A DNA stretch of 39,172 nt, taken from NCBI GenBank assembly GCA_018883715.1, contig JAHLFP010000004.1, positions 1 to 39,172 on the forward strand. Reading direction: 5' to 3'. The notes below the pieces were generated by a model that saw nothing but the letters and a program-made list of their open reading frames with translations, had not been told where the DNA came from and searched no databases. Below are positions 17,057-36,828 of this stretch, in pieces (position 1 is the stretch's first letter; each line of letters starts with the position of its first letter). The stretch comes from Candidatus Allofournierella pullistercoris (lineage in GTDB: Bacteria; Bacillota; Clostridia; Oscillospirales; Ruminococcaceae). The translations under genes were made by a program, and so were the position numbers.

Positions 17057-17860
17057 ATGCAAGTTGTCATTCGAGGAGCAGGAGATTTAGCCACCGGAAT
17101 TGGCTGGCGGTTACACAAATGCGGGTTTCAGGTGATTATGCTGGACCTGCCAAGACCCACCTGCATCCGGCGCACCGTGGCCTTTTCCACCGTGCTGGAG
17201 CAAGCCCCCGGCACAGAGTTCACGGTGGAAGGGGTACAGGCGGTACACTGCGAAACCCCAGAGCAGGCTATAGAAGCAGTGAAAGAGAAAAAGGTTGCGG
17301 TGCTGGCAGACCCGGAAATGAAAAGTCTGGAGCACCTGGAGCTTCATGTGCTGGTGGATGCCATCCTTGCCAAGAAAAACCTGGGTACAAATATGAACCT
17401 CGCCCCGGTGGTGATTGGGGTAGGGCCGGGCTTCACAGCCGACAAGGACTGCCATTTTGTGGTGGAAACCAACCGGGGCCACTATCTGGGCCGGGTAATT
17501 GAAGAGGGCAGTGCGGCGGCAAACACCGGAGTGCCGGGGAATATTCAGGGGTACACCAGCGAGCGAATTTTGAGAAGCCCGGCGGCGGGTGTATTTGAAC
17601 CCCTGGCGGAAATTGGCCAACTGGTGAAAGAAGGACAGGTGGTAGGCCGTGTGGATGGTGTACCCATGTACAGCCAGCTGGACGGCATGGTGCGAGGCAT
17701 GCTGGCAGAGGGCATTCAGGTCACACCCGGATTTAAGTGCGGAGACGTGGACCCCCGTGGCGAAAAAGCGGATTACACCACCATCTCGGACAAGGCCAGA
17801 GCCATCGCCGGCGGTGTGCTGGAAGCCATCCTGCGTCGGTATGGAGCGTTTTTGGGGTAA
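17057..17860 (+). CDS. yqeB: Selenium-dependent molybdenum hydroxylase system protein, YqeB family
   Basis: VVIRGAGDLATGIGWRLHKCGFQVIMLDLPRPTCIRRTVAFSTVL...VVIGVGPGFTADKDCHFVVETNRGHYLGRVI. Confidence 0.92.
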   Translation: MQVVIRGAGDLATGIGWRLHKCGFQVIMLDLPRPTCIRRTVAFSTVLEQAPGTEFTVEGVQAVHCETPEQAIEAVKEKKVAVLADPEMKSLEHLELHVLVDAILAKKNLGTNMNLAPVVIGVGPGFTADKDCHFVVETNRGHYLGRVIEEGSAAANTGVPGNIQGYTSERILRSPAAGVFEPLAEIGQLVKEGQVVGRVDGVPMYSQLDGMVRGMLAEGIQVTPGFKCGDVDPRGEKADYTTISDKARAIAGGVLEAILRRYGAFLG

Positions 17861-19842: not shown

Positions 19843-21027
19843 TTATTTCAGCAGAGCTTTCATTACGCCGGTGTAGCAGTCGGTTGCTTTCACCAGCTGA
19901 TCCACTTCGATGTATTCGTTGATGGTATGTGCCAGGTTTTCACGGCTGGGTCCAAGGCCAAAGGTCTTGATGCCTGCCTCACCTGCATAGTGGCTGCCGT
20001 TGGTGCAGAAGTTGTACTGGGTGATGGTGGGGTTGTAGCCCATCTCTTTCAGCTGGTGGTAAACAGCCTGTACAAAGTCGTCATTCTCGTCGTACAGCCA
20101 GCCGGGGAAGAAGCGCTCGCCCTCAATCTCGTTGCCGGTGTGGCACATCTCTTTGCCCACAGCATAGCTTGCCTTTACCTTCAGCTCCGGATCCTCTGCC
20201 ATCAGCTTATCCAGCAGAGCCTGGATGGGAGCCAGCACGCTCTCCTTGGTTTCGCCCACCAGAAGACGGCGGTCGTAGGTAGCACGGCAGTACTCAGGCA
20301 CAACGGAAGCACCGGGATAGGGAGCGGACTTAATGTCGGTCAGCTCCAGGATGCCGTCGCCCAGCACGGGATGATGGGGAGGCTCCAGGGTGCGGATGGC
20401 CTGGATTACGTTTGCCATCTTGTAGACAGCGTTGATGCCCTTTTCCGGGTTTGCACTGTGGCAGGGCTTGCCGAAGGTTTCGATGACGATTTCAGCACGG
20501 CCACGCTGACCAATCTTCATGTTCAGCTGGCTGGCTTCGCCGATGACCACATAGTCAGGCTTTACATAAGCGCTGATTTCACGGGCGGCAACGCCTTCAA
20601 AGCATTCCTCGTGTACCACGCCAGCTACATAGATTTCACCGGCAAAGTCACGGTCGGTTTCCTTGGCAAAGATGGCGGCGGCACAAGCCATAGCAGCCAC
20701 AGAGCCTTTCATGTCAGAGGTGCCACGGCCATAAATTTTGCCGTCCACAATCTCCGCACCAAAGGGGTCATGGTCCCACTTGCTTGCATCTTCCACGGGA
20801 ACGGTATCAATGTGACCGTCAAACTGTACGCGGGGGCCGGGACGGTTGCCCTTGATGCAACCGATGATGTTGCCGTATTTGTCCACATGGACGCTGTCAA
20901 AGCCGTTGGCTTCAAAAAATTCCTTCAGACGTGCCACAACGCCATCCTCGTGACCGCTGTAACTGGGGGACTGGATGAGTTTCTGGCACAGAGCCACTAC
21001 ACTGTTTTGCTGTTCCTGATTTAACAT
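19843..21027 (-). CDS. ygeY: YgeY-family selenium metabolism-linked hydrolase (M20 peptidase)
   Basis: VQFDGHIDTVPVEDASKWDHDPFGAEIVDGKIYGRGTSDMKGSVAAM...HEECFEGVA. Confidence 0.92.
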   Translation of the reverse strand: MLNQEQQNSVVALCQKLIQSPSYSGHEDGVVARLKEFFEANGFDSVHVDKYGNIIGCIKGNRPGPRVQFDGHIDTVPVEDASKWDHDPFGAEIVDGKIYGRGTSDMKGSVAAMACAAAIFAKETDRDFAGEIYVAGVVHEECFEGVAAREISAYVKPDYVVIGEASQLNMKIGQRGRAEIVIETFGKPCHSANPEKGINAVYKMANVIQAIRTLEPPHHPVLGDGILELTDIKSAPYPGASVVPEYCRATYDRRLLVGETKESVLAPIQALLDKLMAEDPELKVKASYAVGKEMCHTGNEIEGERFFPGWLYDENDDFVQAVYHQLKEMGYNPTITQYNFCTNGSHYAGEAGIKTFGLGPSRENLAHTINEYIEVDQLVKATDCYTGVMKALLK

Positions 21028-21138
21028 AGGTTGTATCCTCCTAATCCTTATACATAAGAAAAAGATATGAGTGTTGTATGAAGCGGAATTTCTTCCGCAG
21101 GATACCACGGGAAAACAGGGGAAAGTGCGAAAAAGGGG

Positions 21139-21170
21139 GTGGACTCCCGGCAAAAGCCGGGAAAATCCAC
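21139..21170 (-). terminator. Hairpin/terminator between ygeX and ygeY
   Basis: Minus strand gtggattttcccggcttttgccgggagtccac followed by cccccttttt. Confidence 0.6.
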
Positions 21171-21316
21171 AAAAAGCGGGCAAAATCAACCAGATGACCC
21201 TGCCGCTTTATAGGTAAGCACCAGGTGACAGTGGAACGTTTGAAACATGAAAGGAGAAAAGATTGTCAAAAGCAAATCCGCTGTCACAGGGTGCAAACTT
21301 GCAGAAAAACAGGGGA

Positions 21317-30936: not shown

Positions 30937-32274
30937 TTAGCGACCAGCGTTGATGCGGTTCCACAAATCGGCGCTCTGCTCACGGCAGTGTGCCAGAACG
31001 GCTTCCTTGTCGATGCCAACCAGCTGGCGGTTTTCCATCTTCACAACACCGTTGATGATGGTGGTCACCACACTGCGACCGGTCATACCAAACAGGATAT
31101 GACTGTTGATGTTGGAAGCATTCATCGGGGTCAGGGGGTCATAGTCGGAGACAATCACGTCGGCGTAAGCGCCGGCCTTCAGGATGCCGATGGGCTTTTT
31201 GAAGAAGCGGCCAGCCATAGCGCGGTTGTTTTCAAACAGCATGGTGGGAATCTCGCCCCAGGCCACGTTGGGCTTGCAAGCATTGTGCTTGTGCAGTACG
31301 TTTGCCACCTTGTAGCTCTCGGTCATGTCGTTGGTGTAGCCGTCGGTGCCAAGACCCACGGTCAGACCTTTTTCCATCATCTTCAGGATGGGAGGGCAGC
31401 CAACGGCGTTGCCCATGTTGCTTTCCGGGTTATGTACCACCATGGTGCCGGTGTGTTTCAGCAGGTCCATCTCGGCCTCGTTGATGTAGATGCAGTGACC
31501 GCAGATGGTTTTATCGCCCAGAATGTCCATGTCATGCAGACGGAATACCAGGCGCTTGTTGTACTTTGCCAGGCTGTCGTACAAATCGTCGATGCCCTCG
31601 GCCACATGGATGTGATAGCCAGCATCCTGGGGCTTTTCAGCGGCGCAGTACTCCAGAGTCTCGTTGGACAGGGTGAAGGGAGCGTGCATACCCATCATGC
31701 CGGCAATCATGTCGGAGTCGTCCTGCTGGGCGTACTTGATGAAATCCACGTTCTCCTTAACGGCGGCTTTCATCTTGTCAGCGCCGTCACGGTCGCTGAT
31801 TTCATAGCACAGGTTGGAGCGAACACCAAACTCCTTGGCGCTCTCTGCAATGGCGAACAGGCTGCCCTCGATGCCGCCGTAGCTGGCATGGTGGTCAAAA
31901 ATGGTGGTAACACCGTTCATGATGCAGTCCAGATAGGTTGCATCGGCGCTTGCCTTGGTGTCCGGCAGCAGCAGGTTGCGGTCGATGGTCCACCACTGCT
32001 GGTCCAGAACCTCCAGGAAGTTGGTGGGGTTGTTTCCCTTGATGGTCAGACCCCGGGCAAAGGCGGAGTAGATGTGGTTGTGGGCGTTGATGAAGCCGGG
32101 CATAATCACGCCACCCTTTGCGTCCATAAAGCGGGCGTCAGGGTATTTGGCTTTCATCTCCTGGGTGGTGCCAACATCGGCAATCAGGTTGCCCTCGATG
32201 GCTACACAGCCGTTGTCCAGATAGGGCATTGCTTCATCCCGGGTGACCAGGCGACCGTTTCCGAGCAGATACAT
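30937..32274 (-). CDS. ssnA: SsnA-type aminohydrolase
   Basis: MYLLGNGRLVTRDEAMPYLDNGCVAIEGNLIADVG...GFINAHNHIYSAFARGL...NFLEVLDQQWWTIDR; SD aaaaggagacg. Confidence 0.93.
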   Translation of the reverse strand: MYLLGNGRLVTRDEAMPYLDNGCVAIEGNLIADVGTTQEMKAKYPDARFMDAKGGVIMPGFINAHNHIYSAFARGLTIKGNNPTNFLEVLDQQWWTIDRNLLLPDTKASADATYLDCIMNGVTTIFDHHASYGGIEGSLFAIAESAKEFGVRSNLCYEISDRDGADKMKAAVKENVDFIKYAQQDDSDMIAGMMGMHAPFTLSNETLEYCAAEKPQDAGYHIHVAEGIDDLYDSLAKYNKRLVFRLHDMDILGDKTICGHCIYINEAEMDLLKHTGTMVVHNPESNMGNAVGCPPILKMMEKGLTVGLGTDGYTNDMTESYKVANVLHKHNACKPNVAWGEIPTMLFENNRAMAGRFFKKPIGILKAGAYADVIVSDYDPLTPMNASNINSHILFGMTGRSVVTTIINGVVKMENRQLVGIDKEAVLAHCREQSADLWNRINAGR

Positions 32275-32575
32275 GGTTTTCGTCTCCTTTTCTATTGTGT
32301 TTTGTGACAAGGTTTATTCGCCATTGTGGCAACAAAAAACCGCCCAGAGCCAGAACTGGCCCAGAGCGGATACACAGGAAGGAGTGACAAAACAGGGGGA
32401 TTTGCGATTTTGGCACGCCGGGGGTACCTGTGTATCGCAGCCCGTGCGCGAAGCACTCCGTTACAGCTGTTTTGACAAAAGAATAAATAATGAAGGCCAT
32501 CCCAAGATGGCTGTGTTAAAAAAAGTACAAATCAATGGAAAATAGTACGGCCCAGGTGGCCGTACCCCCAGTATA
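32275..32575 (-). promoter_or_regulatory. Structured 5' leader of ssnA with candidate promoter (-10 TATACT 32570-32575) and internal intrinsic terminator (32332-32369)
   Basis: Stems gtacggcc/ggccgtac (32545-32565), gccatc/gatggc (~32497-32513), cctgtgtatc/gatacacagg (32427-32436 with 32369-32378), terminator ccgctctgggccagttctggctctgggcggtttttt. Confidence 0.55.
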
Positions 32576-32805
32576 GCAAAGTAAAGACGGGATATGCAAG
32601 GAAAAAAACTAAAAAGGCTGGAATTCTATTTTTTAGATAAATTAAGGGGCAGTTCTTTGTGTACAATGGCGAAAGACTGCACAAATCAAGGAAAAAAGGG
32701 TGGGTGAATTGGACAAAAAAGCGGTGTTTGTTTTGGTGATGTTGGTTATAGCAATAAAAACACAGCGATGAAAAAAGAAAAAATCTCCCCTTAAAATATT
32801 GCGTC

Positions 32806-33280: not shown

Positions 33281-34612
33281 TTAGGATGGTTCTGCTGATT
33301 GTTCCGGGCGAGGCAGGTGGTAAAACAGGGCAGTGGCGGTAAATTCCTCCCCCTGCCAGTCCACCGCAAAATCCCCCTCATGCCGCTCCAGCACCGCCTT
33401 TACATTCCGCAGGCCATAGCCATGGGCCAGAGAATCCTCCTTTTGGGTGGGAAAAAGCTCGGCGCCGCCACTCTGAGCGGGAGCTGGGGGCGCAGTGTTG
33501 CGCACCGACACAAGAAGTTCCTCCTCTTGCCACTGAATCCGTACCCAGATGTGCCGATGGCCCTTTACACGCTGGCAGGCTTCCAGCGCATTGTCCAGCA
33601 GATTGCACAGCAGGACGGACAGGTCCGCTTCCTCCAGCGCCAGCCCTTGCAGGTTGCACAGCCGCAGTTCCATCAAGGTGTCGTGCTGGCAGGCTATGGC
33701 AAACTTCTGGTTTAAAACCACATCCACCAGCACACTTCCAGTATGGGCCACCACAAGAGAAGGGGCAATCTGTTGCTGTACGCTGGCGATATACCGGCAG
33801 ACAGCATCGTCCTTGTTTTGTTCCGCAAGGCGATACAGGATGTTCAGGTGGTTTTTAAAATCGTGGCTTAACTGCCGCTGAGCGCCATAAGCGCCGGTCA
33901 GTTCACTGGAGTGTCGTTTTTGCAGTTCCAGTTGCTGGCTCAGCAGCAGGTTGTCCCGGCGCACGGTATGCCACAGGGTCAACTTGTCCAGTACCCAGGT
34001 CTGCAACAGGCACAGCCCCACAAGTCCGGTGCTAATGAATACGCTGATGGTCAACGGGGCGGCATATTCTTCCACCAAAAGATATACATAGGACACAAAG
34101 GTAAGGGTAAACAGGGGCAAAAAGCTACTCAAAAGCCAAGAATACGGGTTTTCCTCACCAGCTCCAAGGCGCAGTGCCAAATCCTTGTTCAGCAGAAAGG
34201 TGAGCAGCAGACACACGATGGCGGAGAGCAGTAAAAGGGGCGGGCTTTTTTCCAAGGAGTAGGCGGGCAGATGAAAGATACCTGCGGTGGTCAGTACCAC
34301 AATTCGCCGCACACAGACATCCAGCATGAGGTAAAACAGCACCCCGTACACCATCACATACCAGGGACTGTCATGGGTGTACCGGCCAAAGGCTACCAGA
34401 GAGATGGCAACGAGCAAAAACAGCACAAGGGGCGGAAGTGCCATCAGCCGAACCAGCACCAGCTCCCCAATCAGAACCAAAAACAGGCTGGGGATGAACA
34501 TCTTGCGATGGCGGCGGGGGGCGAAGGCATCGCACACCCGGACAAAGGTAATTAGTTGCAAAATATAAAGAAGACTGTTCTTTACCGTGTCAAGCCATAT
34601 GGGGTTCAGCAT
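33281..34612 (-). CDS. GHKL-domain sensor histidine kinase (AgrC-like)
   Basis: N-terminal multi-TM region; QRQLSHDFKNHLNILYRLAEQ, LCNLLDNALEACQRV, GYGLRNVKAVLERHEGDFAV. Confidence 0.88.
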   Translation of the reverse strand: MLNPIWLDTVKNSLLYILQLITFVRVCDAFAPRRHRKMFIPSLFLVLIGELVLVRLMALPPLVLFLLVAISLVAFGRYTHDSPWYVMVYGVLFYLMLDVCVRRIVVLTTAGIFHLPAYSLEKSPPLLLLSAIVCLLLTFLLNKDLALRLGAGEENPYSWLLSSFLPLFTLTFVSYVYLLVEEYAAPLTISVFISTGLVGLCLLQTWVLDKLTLWHTVRRDNLLLSQQLELQKRHSSELTGAYGAQRQLSHDFKNHLNILYRLAEQNKDDAVCRYIASVQQQIAPSLVVAHTGSVLVDVVLNQKFAIACQHDTLMELRLCNLQGLALEEADLSVLLCNLLDNALEACQRVKGHRHIWVRIQWQEEELLVSVRNTAPPAPAQSGGAELFPTQKEDSLAHGYGLRNVKAVLERHEGDFAVDWQGEEFTATALFYHLPRPEQSAEPS

Positions 34613-35328
34613 GATTCCTCTCTCGCTTTCCAAAGTAAGAATTCCCTTTGCAGGTCACGAAACAAGGGTTTGCTCACCGGGATGGTTTGCCCGGTGGAGA
34701 GGATGACAGTGTAGTTCAAAAAGCGCTTCACTACCCAGAAATTCACAAGGAAACTTCGCTGAACCAGATGAAAATCACTGTCGGATAGCTCATTTGCCAG
34801 CTGGCCAAGGCTGGTGTTGCAGACCAGTTTTTCCTGAGTGGGGTTGATAAAGTGGGCAATTACATGGTGACCGCTGGCTTCAAAATAGGCAACCGAGGGC
34901 AGCGCTACCTCCACATCCTGCCCACCACTGCGCAGCAGGATGGTTTGGTTTTTGGGGTGAAGCTGCTCCCAAAGTGCCTGCATGCAGGGGGCAAAGGTTT
35001 GGCTCAGTTGCTCCTTTAAAAGATAGCGAAAGGCGGACACCTGATACCCCTGAGGGGCATAGTCCAGATGGTTGGACACAAAGATAATCCGGGTGGTGGG
35101 GTGCTGTTGCTTCAATTGCTCTGCCAGGGCAAGACCGCTGACCTTTGGCATCTCCACGTCCAGAAACACCGCATCGTAATGGTTGCAAGCAAGCGCATCC
35201 GAAAACTCCGGCGCACTCCCGAAACAGTCCACCGGGAAGCGCAGGTCCTTTTGTGCTAAAAACGTTTGAATCAGCTGTGCAACCTGACGCAGATAGGCCG
35301 GCTGGTCGTCACACACCGCAAATCGCAA
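34606..35328 (-). CDS. LytTR-family response regulator
   Basis: MRFAVCDDQPAYLRQVAQLI...YDAVFLDVEMPKVSGLALAEQL receiver; VALPSVAYFEASGHHVIAHF...FHLVQRSFLVNFWVVKRF LytTR domain. Confidence 0.92.
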   Translation of the reverse strand: MRFAVCDDQPAYLRQVAQLIQTFLAQKDLRFPVDCFGSAPEFSDALACNHYDAVFLDVEMPKVSGLALAEQLKQQHPTTRIIFVSNHLDYAPQGYQVSAFRYLLKEQLSQTFAPCMQALWEQLHPKNQTILLRSGGQDVEVALPSVAYFEASGHHVIAHFINPTQEKLVCNTSLGQLANELSDSDFHLVQRSFLVNFWVVKRFLNYTVILSTGQTIPVSKPLFRDLQREFLLWKAREESC

Positions 35329-35341
35329 ACAAATCTCCTCC

Positions 35342-35956
35342 TCAAAACGGTTGTGGGCCTTGGGCCGGCTTTGCCGCAGCGGGAAGCTGAGCCAGCCGCT
35401 CCAATGCCTGGGGGGTGTCCACGTCCCAAAGCTCCCATTCCCACTGGGCCTGGGTAAGGCGCACCAGATGGGGGTTGTTCAGGATGACCACGCCGCCCCC
35501 TTTTTTAGGGGGCAGACAGCAAAGCTGGTCAAACAGATGGGCGGGGAACAGCACCGGGCTTTGTCCCTGATCCCCCCAGGCAAGGCGGTGGATGCAGTTC
35601 GGTTCCTGTGCAAAGGCATCCGCCAGACGCCGCAAACTGTCTGGCTGACACAGGGGCTGGTCCCCCGGCAGGAACATACATCCATCCACCCCCTGCATGG
35701 ACTGCAAGGCCAGGCGGATAATCTCGTTTCGTGCCTCCAAATTGTGGAGCAACACCGGCAAGCCCTGCTTTTTTGCCAGCTGTTCCACTTCTGGATGGCG
35801 GGTTACCACCAAAAGGCGGTCAAATTTATCCCTTGGCACACAGGCCAGGCTGTACTCCATCATGCAGCCCCCTGGCAGGGGCGCAAGCAGTTTGTTGGAG
35901 CCAAAGCGCCGTCCCTGTCCGCTTGCCATCCAGATGCATCCCAATACCGGCTTCAT
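35342..35956 (-). CDS. mocA: NTP transferase, molybdenum cofactor cytidylyltransferase-like (MocA)
   Basis: GCIWMASGQGRRFGSNKLLAPLPGG...MFLPGDQPLCQPDSLRRL...GQSPVLFPAHLFDQL. Confidence 0.85.
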   Translation of the reverse strand: MKPVLGCIWMASGQGRRFGSNKLLAPLPGGCMMEYSLACVPRDKFDRLLVVTRHPEVEQLAKKQGLPVLLHNLEARNEIIRLALQSMQGVDGCMFLPGDQPLCQPDSLRRLADAFAQEPNCIHRLAWGDQGQSPVLFPAHLFDQLCCLPPKKGGGVVILNNPHLVRLTQAQWEWELWDVDTPQALERLAQLPAAAKPAQGPQPF

Positions 35957-36339
35957 CGTTTTGCAGTTCGCTTGCTTCCGTCGGGATAATAGCAACCCGG
36001 CTGGAAGCTGGCAAAATGCAGGGCAAACAGGCTTTCACAGGACTGCTCACAGGCGGCAGTGTAGGCCTCGTAGCGCATCATCAGCTCCCGTGCCGCATCG
36101 GTCAGGGTGGAACCGCCGCCCCCCTTGCCGCCAATGTACCGACTTGTCAAGGAGCAACCCAGGTACTCCTCCGCCTGTCGCATTAGGCTTAGGGCTTTGG
36201 TGTACGCCATCCCCATCCGCTGGGCGGAAGCCCGCAGGCTTCCCAGTTCCTCGATGCCCTGAAGAAGCTGGTAGGGGCCACTGCCAAAAAAGCGTCGCCC
36301 CTCTTCGTCGCAAAGCTGTAAAAATACCCGTGGTTTCAT
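35953..36339 (-). CDS. ModE-like winged-helix molybdate-responsive regulator (HTH domain only)
   Basis: GPYQLLQGIEELGSLRASAQRMGMAYTKALSLMRQAEEYLGCSLTSRYIGGKGGGGSTLTDAARELMMRYEAY; ATGA overlap with mocA. Confidence 0.82.
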   Translation of the reverse strand: MKPRVFLQLCDEEGRRFFGSGPYQLLQGIEELGSLRASAQRMGMAYTKALSLMRQAEEYLGCSLTSRYIGGKGGGGSTLTDAARELMMRYEAYTAACEQSCESLFALHFASFQPGCYYPDGSKRTAKR

Positions 36340-36389
36340 GGAAATACCCTCCTGTTCTGCCATAAAATGGTGCAAAGCCGAGAATCTCC

Positions 36390-36418
36390 TTGGCTTTTTA
36401 TTCTTATTGTAATATAAT
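36390..36418 (+). promoter_or_regulatory. Promoter TTGGCT-17-TATAAT
   Basis: ttggct 36390-36395; tataat 36413-36418. Confidence 0.5.
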
Positions 36419-36501
36419 TGGTACAGCGTTGCAAGGCTGGAGCAAGCACGGTCTGCAATCCAAAAACAAGGCAACAAACAAAGCCAAAGGAGGACGGCTC
36501 T

Positions 36502-36828
36502 ATGGTACGATTTTCCTACCCATTCTACCCCATGCAGTGGTATAAAAATAAGAATCCCGTGTCCGGAAATGCGGGCCTTTTTAACTATAAGGTACAGCGG
36601 CAGGAGGACAGCCTGGTGGCACATTACTGGCTGGGGGTCTGGTGCATGGAGAAAACAAAGGATGTATACAGCCAGTCCTTTCCTTTAAGCGAAGAGGGCT
36701 TACAGAAAGCGGTGCAGTGGCTGACCAATGCCTTTAAAGCCACCCCGGCAGATCAGCTGGAATCCCGGGATGCCTTCTTCACCACCCAGCCCTATACCCC
36801 ACCCAAGGAAAAACAACCGGAAGAATAA
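36502..36828 (+). CDS. Conserved-looking hypothetical protein
   Basis: MVRFSYPFYPMQWYKNKNPVSGNAGLFNYKVQRQEDSLVAHYWLG...; SD aaggagg; followed by a terminator. Confidence 0.7.
   Translation: MVRFSYPFYPMQWYKNKNPVSGNAGLFNYKVQRQEDSLVAHYWLGVWCMEKTKDVYSQSFPLSEEGLQKAVQWLTNAFKATPADQLESRDAFFTTQPYTPPKEKQPEE

Follow-up and report, generated by a model that had tools for sequence, protein, structure and literature searches.

The described RNA element closest to the leader studied here is ssnA RNA (Rfam RF03031), which was reportedly first described by Weinberg et al. in 2017 and which was catalogued before the function of its genes was known. Guanine-family riboswitches (guanine, adenine and xanthine-II) are three-way junction aptamers, and the hairpins recognized by BglG/LicT-type antiterminators are short, carry lopsided internal loops and overlap a terminator. 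No mention of RF03031 was found in the literature searched, and ssnA is absent from the riboswitch reviews consulted. Xanthine-I, the former NMT1 motif, senses xanthine and uric acid and works as an OFF switch, likely translational, on genes leading to xanthine and urate (PMC7373994). Reductive urate degradation via yanthine was solved only in 2025; urate is converted into yanthine, after which YgfK and SsnA, then HyuA, YgeW/UacY, YgeY and YgeX take over, and how gut bacteria at large control their genes for urate metabolism is still poorly understood (PMC12507026). In other, distant gut bacteria, ygfK and ssnA are induced by urate (PMC12990295), and no report of urate induction in a species carrying ssnA RNA was found in the literature searched.

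The ssnA leader and the genes behind it

The window, that is, the whole 39,172-nt stretch of Candidatus Allofournierella pullistercoris DNA analysed, holds on its minus strand a leader of about 290-305 nt that extends from a promoter-like site to the ssnA start codon (32274). Its elements and the genes that follow are listed below with the evidence for each; the sister species used for comparison is L021.

32570-32599, minus strand: promoter, -35 box TTGCAT (32599-32594) and -10 box TATACT (32575-32570), 18-nt spacer; sequence
32545-32565, minus strand: 5'-end hairpin GTACGGCC/GGCCGTAC, 8 bp; sequence
32496-32511, minus strand: second hairpin GCCATC/GATGGC; sequence
32388-32474, minus strand: anti-P1, CAAAACAG (32474-32467) with CTGTTTTG (32395-32388), excludes P1; L021 comparison and folding
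32437-32469, minus strand: ssnA RNA core, 33-nt hairpin of P1, lopsided internal loop and P2; RF03031 match and covariation
32469-32465 with 32442-32438, minus strand: P1, CAGCT/GGCTG; RF03031 match and covariation
32456-32453 with 32447-32444, minus strand: P2, GTGC/GCAC, loop TTCGC; RF03031 match and covariation
within 32437-32469, minus strand: internal loop GTAACGGA opposite G, between P1 and P2
32369-32436, minus strand: P3, GATACACAGG (32436-32427) with CCTGTGTATC (32378-32369), 10 bp; sequence, shuffles, L021 and folding
32334-32369, minus strand: intrinsic terminator hairpin (32369-32340) and T6 run (32339-32334); sequence and folding
32284-32289, minus strand: ssnA Shine-Dalgarno AAGGAG; sequence
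30937-32274, minus strand: ssnA, aminohydrolase of the reductive urate pathway; NF005540 681 bits, TIGR03314 620 bits
27840-30812, minus strand: ygfK; TIGR03315 1375 bits
26452-27810, minus strand: hyuA-type dihydropyrimidinase/hydantoinase; TIGR02033 563 bits
23864-26470, minus strand: selenium-dependent xanthine dehydrogenase-type molybdenum hydroxylase; TIGR03311 1386 bits
22529-23860, minus strand: xanthine/uracil-type permease (Xan_ur_permease); PF00860 252 bits
21317-22525, minus strand: ygeX-like PLP-dependent lyase; PF00291 164 bits, YgeX identity inferred from position and family
19843-21189, minus strand: ygeY-like M20 hydrolase; NF009555 527 bits
18159-19757, minus strand: Amidohydro_3 D-aminoacylase-like protein, candidate UacY; PF07969, UacY inferred from PMC12507026

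The sole Rfam family matched in the whole window was RF03031, found at 32469-32437 of the minus strand with 45.1 bits, above its gathering threshold of 37.3 (E=2.7e-9 for the window); the match covers only model positions 8-40 of 48. As RNA, the core reads CAGCU-GUAACGGA-GUGC-UUCGC-GCAC-G-GGCUG. It lies about 160 nt 5' of the ssnA start with the terminator in between, a cis-regulatory position upstream of an ssnA-type gene. Judged by its sequence, the leader belongs to ssnA RNA, a cis-regulatory orphan family that is catalogued but functionally unsolved, and is not categorically new. The preliminary description had not recognized it as a known element; the family was missed because the P2 hairpin was overlooked and other pairings were drawn through it. 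Its reading of the leader as a riboswitch or attenuator does fit an RF03031 core that is followed, before the Shine-Dalgarno of ssnA, by an intrinsic terminator. It was also right to set the leader apart from the canonical purine riboswitch and the T-box, as the leader gave no Rfam match at E up to 5 to purine (guanine-family) riboswitches, T-boxes or xanthine-I (NMT1).

The window copy shares with RF03031 its sequence, its P1/P2 core and its place upstream of ssnA. It differs in that it occurs singly, with its terminator placed beyond an extra helix, P3, and in lacking an outer stem, GATAG/CTATC, seen in another family of the order. Xanthine-I resembles ssnA RNA as a small helical RNA with conserved bulges, but ssnA RNA precedes urate-degrading genes and is coupled to a terminator. 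With the guanine family the leader would share purine-linked control via terminators.

Transcription would be expected to start near 32563, 5' of both core and terminator. The TTGC of the promoter and a block TTTGCTATACTG are kept in the sister species, and the -10 box recurs in relatives. The perfect 8-bp hairpin noted earlier at the 5' end is present at 32565-32545 and reappears in the sister species as GCGGTC/GACCGT, with its bases changed and the hairpin kept; the second hairpin reported with it is likewise found (32511-32496). Immediately upstream of the leader, at 33281-35328 of the minus strand, lie a GHKL-type sensor kinase and a LytTR response regulator. In several genera (L003, L006, L007, L014, L018, L022), a divergently transcribed gene faces the ssnA leader; its product, about 210 aa long and by eye PAS/HTH-like ('...LAKGIAQQFGNNCEVVVHDLSDN...'), may regulate the ssnA operon at the DNA level.

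The gene order ssnA-ygfK-hyuA-xdh-permease-ygeX-ygeY-uacY matches by sequence the full set for reductive (oxygen-free) urate degradation, with UacY as a candidate. Since the RNA precedes a complete set of urate-breakdown genes, uric acid or a close breakdown product is the obvious candidate signal. Elsewhere the RNA is followed by non-homologous genes that are all purine-linked: a Xan_ur_permease and then a xanthine dehydrogenase-like gene with an early frame stop (L054, 1-4300), or a PnrA-like Bmp ABC lipoprotein gene (L055, 1-1500). The common factor of the genes behind the RNA is an oxidised purine. A MobA-like nucleotidyltransferase, a LysR-type HTH protein that is ModE-like by eye, and YqeB flank the operon in the window (35342-36624 on the minus strand, 17057-17860 on the plus strand), and probably serve selenium/molybdenum cofactor maturation; an HTH gene of similar kind lies directly upstream of the tandem ssnA RNA of genome G352 (L056, 7513-8190).

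Conservation, tandem copies and terminator designs

The core was searched in genomes sampled from the same family (398), from the order (396) and from the class (388), and 22, 16 and 1 genomes, respectively, exceeded the cut-off. These matches are confined to two families of the order (f1 and f14), the one from the class sample being the source genome itself. Weaker matches below the cut-off (L023-L025, L046-L051), several of them inside coding sequence by eye, were dropped. Within the family, 19 of the 23 genomes whose ssnA scores above the cut-off carry the RNA. The other four are members of a single genus; in three of these a coding frame, by eye apparently a carbamate kinase, stops no more than about 250 nt upstream of ssnA. 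In the second family (L031-L037), the core bears the extra outer stem and a short hairpin abutting the terminator, an arrangement that resembles that of the window.

In the 35 distinct cores compared, standard pairs make up 98.1% of pair cells, four of the nine core pairs show double changes, and P2 (GTGC/GCAC) is paired in every sequence. The covariation score of the core was reached by none of 500 shuffles and was far lower in every slid control; related sequences can beat shuffles without any structure, yet the slid control retains this relatedness and the separation is clear. Both P1 and P2, the helices of RF03031, covary in this set, which holds the window copy. Conservation and covariation upstream of ssnA orthologues, the check by which the preliminary description was to stand or fall, were thus found for the core in many genera, and the description was not refuted on this point. 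Sixteen of the 33 core columns are invariant. The internal loop is near-invariant (AA, G and A, plus the G on the opposite side), as expected of a binding pocket, and is the likely site of one.

Two cores in series occur in five of seven members of the genus and in one genome of each of two other genera (L009, L010, L011, L012, L015, L027 from G352 and L020 from G354), spaced 116-176 nt apart and each with its own T-run behind it. The first copies of the genus have an A-U pair in P1 (CAACU/GGUUG), whereas the second copies have G-C (CGGCU/GGCUG or GGCCG), which indicates that the two copies evolved apart. In tandem relatives TTTTTTTAACA flanks the first core on its 5' side; in the window the GCCATC/GATGGC hairpin comes next instead. 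From these sequences, the simplest account would be that the window lineage lost its first copy.

A T-run lies 3' of the core in all 44 distinct copies, having been picked by hand in eight where the first run was too short or not behind a hairpin. In 23 of the 44, the terminator uses P1 or P2 strands (for example, AAAACGGCUGUAA/UUACAGUCGUUUU in L011.2 and GGGCCGGAUGUUC/GAAUGUCCGGCUC in L055), so that core formation excludes termination, the logic of an ON switch. In one design (A), the 3' arm of the terminator pairs with the 5' side of P1, over 13 contiguous pairs in L011.2 and 11 in L010.2; the pairings of 7 bp seen in first tandem copies are weak when taken singly (p about 0.05-0.2). In another (B), the 3' side of P1 is itself the 5' arm of the terminator (L005, L016, L019, L026 and L055; 11-15 contiguous pairs, p at most 0.005). 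A ligand that stabilised P1, if there is one, would turn genes ON in both. In the copies of a third group, it is the flank of P1 that pairs with or beside the 5' arm of the terminator, as in L007 (GGAUGGACGC/GCGUCCAUUC, p<0.002) and also in L037 and L038, the remaining members being individually not significant. The window copy belongs near this third group.

Folding of the window copy

P3 starts directly 3' of P1 and ends directly 5' of the terminator, with which it has 1 nt in common (3 nt in the sister species). This is the 10-bp pairing abutting the terminator that had been noticed beforehand, and it holds up beyond chance: no perfect inverted repeat in the leader is longer, its length is reached in 4% of dinucleotide shuffles, and its specific placement, joining the core flank to the stretch before the terminator, has p=0.006. 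In the sister species it becomes GATACACATG/CATGTGTATC, with one compensatory change in what are two sequences from one genus, and in both it sits 29 nt before the U-run. The terminator reported ahead of the ssnA Shine-Dalgarno is present too (32369-32340, T6) and recurs in the sister species, where CTGTTTTG of anti-P1 is also kept. A P3 that reaches two pairs further into the terminator is incompatible with P1, and the result calculated for it was disregarded.

Other pairings of the preliminary description fared less well. The strings of its closing helix cggagtg/cactcc and of its pseudoknot half GCACG/CGTGC do exist, but both were rejected, as they consume P2 strands and lack a counterpart in the sister species; the domain boundaries drawn with the closing helix cut through the conserved P2 hairpin. 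The other half, TGCGAT/ATCGCA, is present and forms a helix in one of two tied folds, with no counterpart in the sister species either. Taken together, the earlier observation is partly confirmed and the earlier interpretation partly supported.

The bistability that had been suggested is borne out in silico. Two predicted folds of the leader tie at -49.6 kcal/mol, one with anti-P1 and the full terminator, the other with a P1-like helix, P3 and the terminator minus one pair; the exact core costs 2.1 kcal/mol above them. In stepwise folding, anti-P1 is favored at 0.99 before the 3' arm of P3 is made, and P3 at 0.98 afterwards. On paper, then, the modelled leader is bistable, and a ligand stabilising P1 would tip the balance. 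Core and anti-P1 exclude each other in the window copy, yet forcing the core does not remove the predicted terminator (arm pairing 0.81 vs 0.74; 0.91 vs 0.91 in the sister species), and its removal with the core formed costs 18.5 kcal/mol, beyond what a ligand would normally pay. Relief of termination in this copy is something that we infer, because the terminator stands in both folds, its overlap with P3 is 1 nt and the cost of removing it is so large.

The proposed switch and its alternatives

The leader is probably a transcription-terminating ON riboswitch for urate or yanthine that controls the reductive urate operon. The 33-nt hairpin core would be the sensor, with the lopsided, conserved internal loop as its likely pocket, and the proposed ligand, urate or the pathway intermediate yanthine (2,8-dioxopurine), would stabilise P1. 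In the absence of ligand, the 5' side of P1 would pair with the downstream CTGTTTTG and the terminator would form fully; in its presence, P1 and then P3 would form, and P3 would take the base of the terminator, a trimming through which termination might be relieved in the window copy.

A riboswitch of the same architecture might sense something else, namely xanthine, a later intermediate such as ureidomethyl-hydantoin, a selenium compound or the molybdenum cofactor. Several intermediates occur along the pathway (PMC12507026), and the operon, with a MobA-like gene upstream, encodes a molybdenum hydroxylase of selenium-dependent type, but the other genes found behind the RNA, purine transporters and xanthine dehydrogenase, point to a purine and not to the cofactor or a late intermediate. 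We give this reading a small chance of being correct. It is quite improbable that the family is a riboswitch of which the window copy is a decayed or rewired member, its twin and its own P1-based terminator lost and the downstream terminator reduced to a simple attenuator or operon insulator. The terminator does fold in both states, the P1-built terminator of the relatives' second copies is here a mere remnant (CTGTTTTG), and this genome lacks the first copy present in five of seven genus members; however, the core is whole and scores above the gathering threshold, and P3, with its exact placement before the U-run and its compensatory change, is kept in the sister species.

The hairpin could also be the site of an RNA-binding antiterminator protein (BglG/LicT-like) sensing urate or another signal, the RNA itself binding no metabolite. 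A hairpin of about 33 nt with a lopsided internal loop and an overlap with terminator strands does resemble ribonucleic antiterminator sites, and a near-invariant core would suit recognition by a protein as well. BglG/LicT targets, however, need a CAT_RBD protein, and no BglG-type CAT_RBD domain was found in the genome, which is 88.6% complete, so that this is not absolute, while four control genomes matched; nor does any recognisable RNA-binding gene adjoin the RNA in the window. We regard such a protein-based switch as rather unlikely. An ANTAR search gave no match in any control genome and so carries no weight either way.

Returning to the favored reading, a ligand-binding ON switch, the locus is of value for the link between an orphan RNA and a pathway, for the tandem copies and for the terminator designs, which predict an ON switch; the tandem copies and designs also offer natural test constructs. 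An orphan RNA joined to a solved pathway leaves a short list of ligands and a possible regulator of gut urate removal, with relevance to gout. More tentatively, ssnA RNA could prove to be the first natural yanthine aptamer or an ON switch selective for urate, with which certain gut-type anaerobes turn on reductive urate degradation, often through two complete switches in series ahead of one operon.
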